Of a DNA stretch of 64,000 bases, positions 60,693 through 61,006 are shown piece by piece. The stretch covers positions 124,001 through 188,000 of the forward strand of contig OMWZ01000001.1 of the NCBI GenBank assembly GCA_900314855.1. Reading direction: 5' to 3'. This DNA comes from an uncultured Selenomonadales bacterium (GTDB lineage Bacteria; Bacillota; Negativicutes; Acidaminococcales; Acidaminococcaceae). The notes beneath the pieces are model-generated. The model saw nothing but the letters and a program-made list of their open reading frames with translations, did not search any database and was not told the origin of the DNA. The stretch's first letter is position 1; every line of letters begins with the position of its first letter. The translations under genes were made by a program, and so were the position numbers.

Positions 60693-60722
60693 AAAAAGGC
60701 TGCCGGATTTCTCCGACAGCCT
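60693..60722 (-). terminator. Terminator of rnpB
   Basis: A 9-bp GC-rich stem (GGCTGTCGG with CCGGCAGCC, one G-U pair) followed by five T on the minus strand, about 10 bases beyond the rnpB 3' end. Confidence 0.88.
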
Positions 60723-60730
60723 GTTCTTTC

Positions 60731-61006
60731 GGTGTGAGTAGTCAATAAGCCGAGTTCTGTTCCGACAAGCGGTGGCAATCATTTATCTATACCAGAGATT
60801 ACTCCCCGGTTACAGCGACACAACCCGGAAGGATCAGCGGGCAACATCATCCCTTCCCTATTTGGTCTTACTCCGAGTGGGGTTTACCAAGCCAAGTAAT
60901 TACTTACTTGCTGGTGCGCTCTTACCGCACCGCGGCACTCTGCCCTTTGGAGCTCGGACTTTCCTCACCGTCCTTAAAGGACGCCGCGATTGCCTTTTAT
61001 ACTCAC
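60731..61006 (-). ncRNA. rnpB: RNase P RNA, about 276 nt, lacking the P8-P12 specificity segment
   Basis: Catalytic RNA that matures tRNA 5' ends. Read on the minus strand: P1 arm GTGAGTA (61006-61000) pairs with TACTCAC (60740-60734); conserved region I GAGGAAAGTCC (60966-60956); GGGCAGAGTGCC (60945-60934); P13 hairpin (60931-60913) and P14; region IV ACCAAATAGGG (60866-60856); P15-P18; region V ACAGAACTCGGCTTA (about 60760-60746). Standard RNAs carry about 90-100 more nt, including ACAGARAG and GGUGAAAGG elements, between GTGCC and P13; here only two bases (60932-60933) are found. All other landmarks are intact. Confidence 0.93.

Follow-up and report, generated by a model that had tools for sequence, protein, structure and literature searches.

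A shortened RNase P RNA gene in a draft bacterial genome is probably an ordinary gene with an unmarked assembly gap

The window, that is, the whole stretch of 64,000 nucleotides that was analyzed, contains a single RNA family match at gathering score, which lies at 61005-60731 on the minus strand and identifies a bacterial class A RNase P RNA (RF00010). The cmscan match reached 152.1 bits (against a gathering score of 100; E 4.8e-47) and covers the whole model (1-367 of 367), yet it spans 275 nt only. The 3' end of this rnpB gene as assembled (60731..61005, minus strand) is adjoined by a hairpin with a T-run that resembles an intrinsic terminator (60697..60722, minus strand), as found by a terminator scan for which 0.9 such sites were expected by chance. 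A consensus scan detected no promoter for rnpB, and in an alignment of the upstream region TTGCAA stands at the position of the relatives' TTGACA. Of the two flanking signals that an earlier note on this DNA had assigned to the gene, the terminator was thus recovered, and the promoter was not confirmed.

The catalytic core of a class A RNA is present. Conserved region I with the 5' strand of P4 (GAGGAAAGTCCG; 60955..60966) is intact in the cmscan alignment, and the P13 hairpin (60913..60931) and the P14 hairpin (60891..60911) are intact and the same as in the closest relatives, G004 and G009, as judged by alignment and folding. A P18 hairpin with a GUAA tetraloop is recognizable from the sequence and the cmscan alignment at 60792..60809 (all on the minus strand). 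The P4 strands, P15-P18, P13, P14, and the conserved regions I, IV, and V are all there, which bears out the catalytic-domain landmarks listed in the earlier note, and its anatomy and coordinates of a shortened RNase P RNA were also correct.

What the assembled gene lacks in direct comparison to G004 and G009 is a block of 78 nt that comprises most of P8, all of P9-P12, and the conserved regions II and III. In this respect it differs from bacterial class A RNAs (RF00010), with which it shares the whole catalytic domain, P13, P14, P18, and the locus of its congeners. A loss of about 90-100 nt covering P8-P12 and conserved regions II and III had been proposed; the absence is confirmed, but its size is exactly 78 nt, and P8 is lost mostly rather than wholly. 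Likewise, a segment of the specificity domain (S-domain) is missing and not the whole domain, as P13 and P14 belong to it and remain. The junction lies at 60932..60933 on the minus strand, where GAGTGCCG ends at 60933 and CGGTGCGG starts at 60932. In the alignment with 11 congeners, neither a repeat nor microhomology was found at this position, no base being common to both edges, and the missing P8-P12 block has no copy anywhere else in the assembly.

The comparison within the genus covered 13 other genomes, 11 of which have a readable rnpB locus. All 11 carry a full-length gene of 353-366 nt, and the nearest congeners, G004 and G009, are 96-98% identical to the window gene outside the gap. 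The other two, G012 and G007, gave no RF00010 match, but a shared loss could be ruled out, as their contigs end inside rnpB. In two further congeners, contigs end just behind rnpB. A second, partial rnpB match with 89% identity was seen on another contig of one congener (G008:C31:3849-3966), which is perhaps a fragment of a contaminating strain.

The window belongs to a draft genome of 33 contigs and 1.83 Mb that is 89.5% complete, a state that suggests a metagenome-assembled genome (MAG). A search of all its contigs revealed neither a second RF00010 match nor a split rnpB; the check for a full-length gene elsewhere, which the earlier note had recommended, therefore leaves the window copy as the only one. 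RNase P is essential. The genome encodes the partner protein of class A RNAs, RnpA (PF00825, E 1.3e-27), and it has no match to the PIN_5/HARP-type proteins (PF08745), by which a HARP-like protein-only replacement is ruled out. Together with the 45 tRNA matches in this genome, compared to 48-51 in four congeners, this indicates that the genome needs RNase P. The flanks of rnpB follow the order seen in G009, in agreement with an orthologous locus. A generally poor assembly was also considered and can be ruled out: the protein genes on the contig appear intact in comparison with G009, the tRNA arrays are assembled, and neither the window nor the 735 kb of the genome that were inspected contain any Ns.

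In class A RNAs, P18 contacts P8 (PMC5839562), and a long-standing loss of P8-P12 should, as judged from the sequence, have let P13, P14, and P18 drift. However, the P13-P14 region of about 44 nt is identical to that of G004 and G009 in the alignment, whereas four-fold degenerate sites across the contig agree with G009 at 65.7% only, which means that about 34% differ. At such a divergence, the unchanged P13-P14 region reveals no drift in the partners of the missing block, and no old loss is visible. This also separates the gene from the archaeal type T RNAs of Pyrobaculum and its relatives, which likewise have kept the catalytic domain and lost most of the S-domain (PMC5839562, PMC7191817). 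In type T, the S-domain is lost or degenerate, P18 is absent as well, and the reduced form is common to related species throughout the family, whereas the window gene has intact P13, P14, and P18 and stands alone in one genome, next to 11 of 11 readable congeners with the full-length form. As for bacteria, RNase P RNAs without P12 are described for Mycoplasma fermentans and two CPR genomes (PMC8172020, PMC7191817), and we found no natural bacterial RNase P RNA without the whole P8-P12 module in the literature examined.

To see the gene in a wider context, about 85,000 genomes were scanned for class A genes in which the conserved regions I and IV are 41-101 nt apart, a spacing that is 160-166 nt in intact relatives and 86 nt in the window. 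The scan was not exhaustive, as its anchors were exact (both were recovered from 35 of the 46 relative loci, and some loci do not contain the whole gene). It returned nine matches, every one a MAG, from a genome collection that itself consists mostly of MAGs. Five of them are UBA MAGs of different phyla with NN or NNN inside rnpB (L056 4934, L057 7884, L058 1187, L060 1484, and L062 1625), and the missing part is therefore an acknowledged gap. Much of the S-domain is missing from these five genes, and the gaps are in reality larger than the short N runs suggest. They resemble the window gene in that part of P5-P14 is missing in a metagenome assembly, and in L060 the sequence starts again at the identical P13 position, but their gaps are marked by two or three Ns, whereas the gap in the window is unmarked. 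The rnpB of a deltaproteobacterial MAG (L063 5480-5778) contains no Ns, but one half of P9 is fused to one half of P13, which may represent a further assembly gap left unmarked. The match in a planctomycete MAG (L061 6315-6804) is a full-length rnpB with an insertion that brings a second GACCAAATAGGG into the S-domain, and it is perhaps a chimeric assembly. The name of this contig gives a coverage of 1.23. The remaining two matches, L055 and L059, are reduced genes of Elusimicrobia that keep the conserved regions II and III, so that a credible loss of the whole P8-P12 module occurs in none of the nine.

The Elusimicrobia represent a different kind of reduction. Reduced rnpB genes of 242-346 nt were found in 12 of 16 genomes of this phylum that were searched. 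The genes (L055, L059, L119-L130) are shortened class A RNAs like that of the window, but the shortening is clade-wide, all aligned genes have lost P13, P14, and P18, and several have also lost P8-P9, while those genes that can be read retain the conserved regions II and III. A text search of the literature found no paper containing both 'RNase P RNA' and 'Elusimicrobia', and we would like to note the clade-wide class A reduction at the loci L055, L059, L119, L120, L122-L124, and L127-L130 as a side aspect.

In mixed communities, assembly graphs branch, and short-read metagenome assemblies tend to break, at sequence shared between species. The 21-mers that are common to at least 9 of 30 genomes outside the genus form three blocks that make up 23% of rnpB. 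Both gap edges sit in such widely shared blocks, the right edge even in the most shared one, as would be expected for an assembly artefact. Ns or a repeat at the junction, which would be further marks of an artefact, were not seen. Among the relatives, 6 contig ends fall at rnpB compared to 2.5 expected (P 0.04), a small excess that was counted after the fact and thus lends weak support to an artefact. RNase P RNA has already been used to recognize misassembled genomes (PMC8172020).

We therefore regard it as likely that the shortened rnpB is an ordinary gene with an unmarked assembly gap, as all readable congeners are intact, the docking partners of the missing part are kept, and most of the comparable gaps are assembly gaps. 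The genome would have come from a short-read metagenome assembly, in which the two halves of rnpB were presumably joined across an unfilled gap. With this join, 78 nt of the specificity domain would have dropped out with no N left as a mark, and the step responsible for it would have been gap closing or scaffolding, not an event in a cell. A simple repeat collapse is unlikely in view of the junction without repeat or microhomology; as a plain k-mer collapse would not produce such a junction, a gap join is needed. The collapsed assembly that the earlier note had listed as an option is thus our best reading in the sense of an assembly artefact, and it is unlikely in its literal sense. The organism itself very probably has a normal class A RNase P RNA of full length, with RnpA as its working partner. 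Because the gap join is only deduced, an actual deletion that arose very recently in the strain or in part of the population is to be considered as an unlikely alternative. It would leave either a weakened RNase P of catalytic domain and RnpA or a non-viable allele that happened to be sampled. The intact congeners, the coincidence of the gap edges with assembly-prone shared sequence, and the lack of a detectable backup for an essential enzyme disagree with such a deletion. It would fit the clean junction without Ns in an otherwise sound assembly, and bacterial catalytic domains without the S-domain do retain reduced activity in vitro (PMC5839562, PMC4919922).

A stable working minimal RNase P, in which the core and RnpA would function without the T-loop-binding P8-P12 module in convergence with archaeal type T, was among the readings of the earlier note and appears very improbable to us. 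The catalytic core, the conserved regions I, IV, and V, RnpA, and the terminator are present, and no RNase P RNA besides the window copy is found in the assembly, but P13, P14, and P18 are unchanged although their docking sites are gone. Type T RNAs have no P18 (PMC5839562), and the reduced Elusimicrobia genes have no P13, P14, and P18. The full-length genes of the readable congeners and the results of the wide scan, with no credible counterpart and with assembly gaps as the most frequent cause, speak against this reading as well. It is hardly conceivable, finally, that the window copy is a degraded second copy and that a full-length gene resides in the tenth of the genome that is not assembled. 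The incompleteness of about 10% is the sole point in its favor, whereas the locus is orthologous to that of rnpB in G009 with matching flanks, and the gene shows no decay apart from the gap.

To our knowledge, a bacterial RNase P without the P8-P12 module would be the first of its kind. If true, it would mean that in nature a bacterial ribozyme can dispense with the module by which it recognizes its substrate, an issue that has been approached with in vitro constructs until now. As the likely artefact that we consider it to be, the gene is a warning that, without reads, a shortened RNase P RNA seen in just one draft genome should not be taken as biology, and that rnpB is a site at which metagenome assemblies lose the specificity domain, in some cases perhaps with no Ns left behind.
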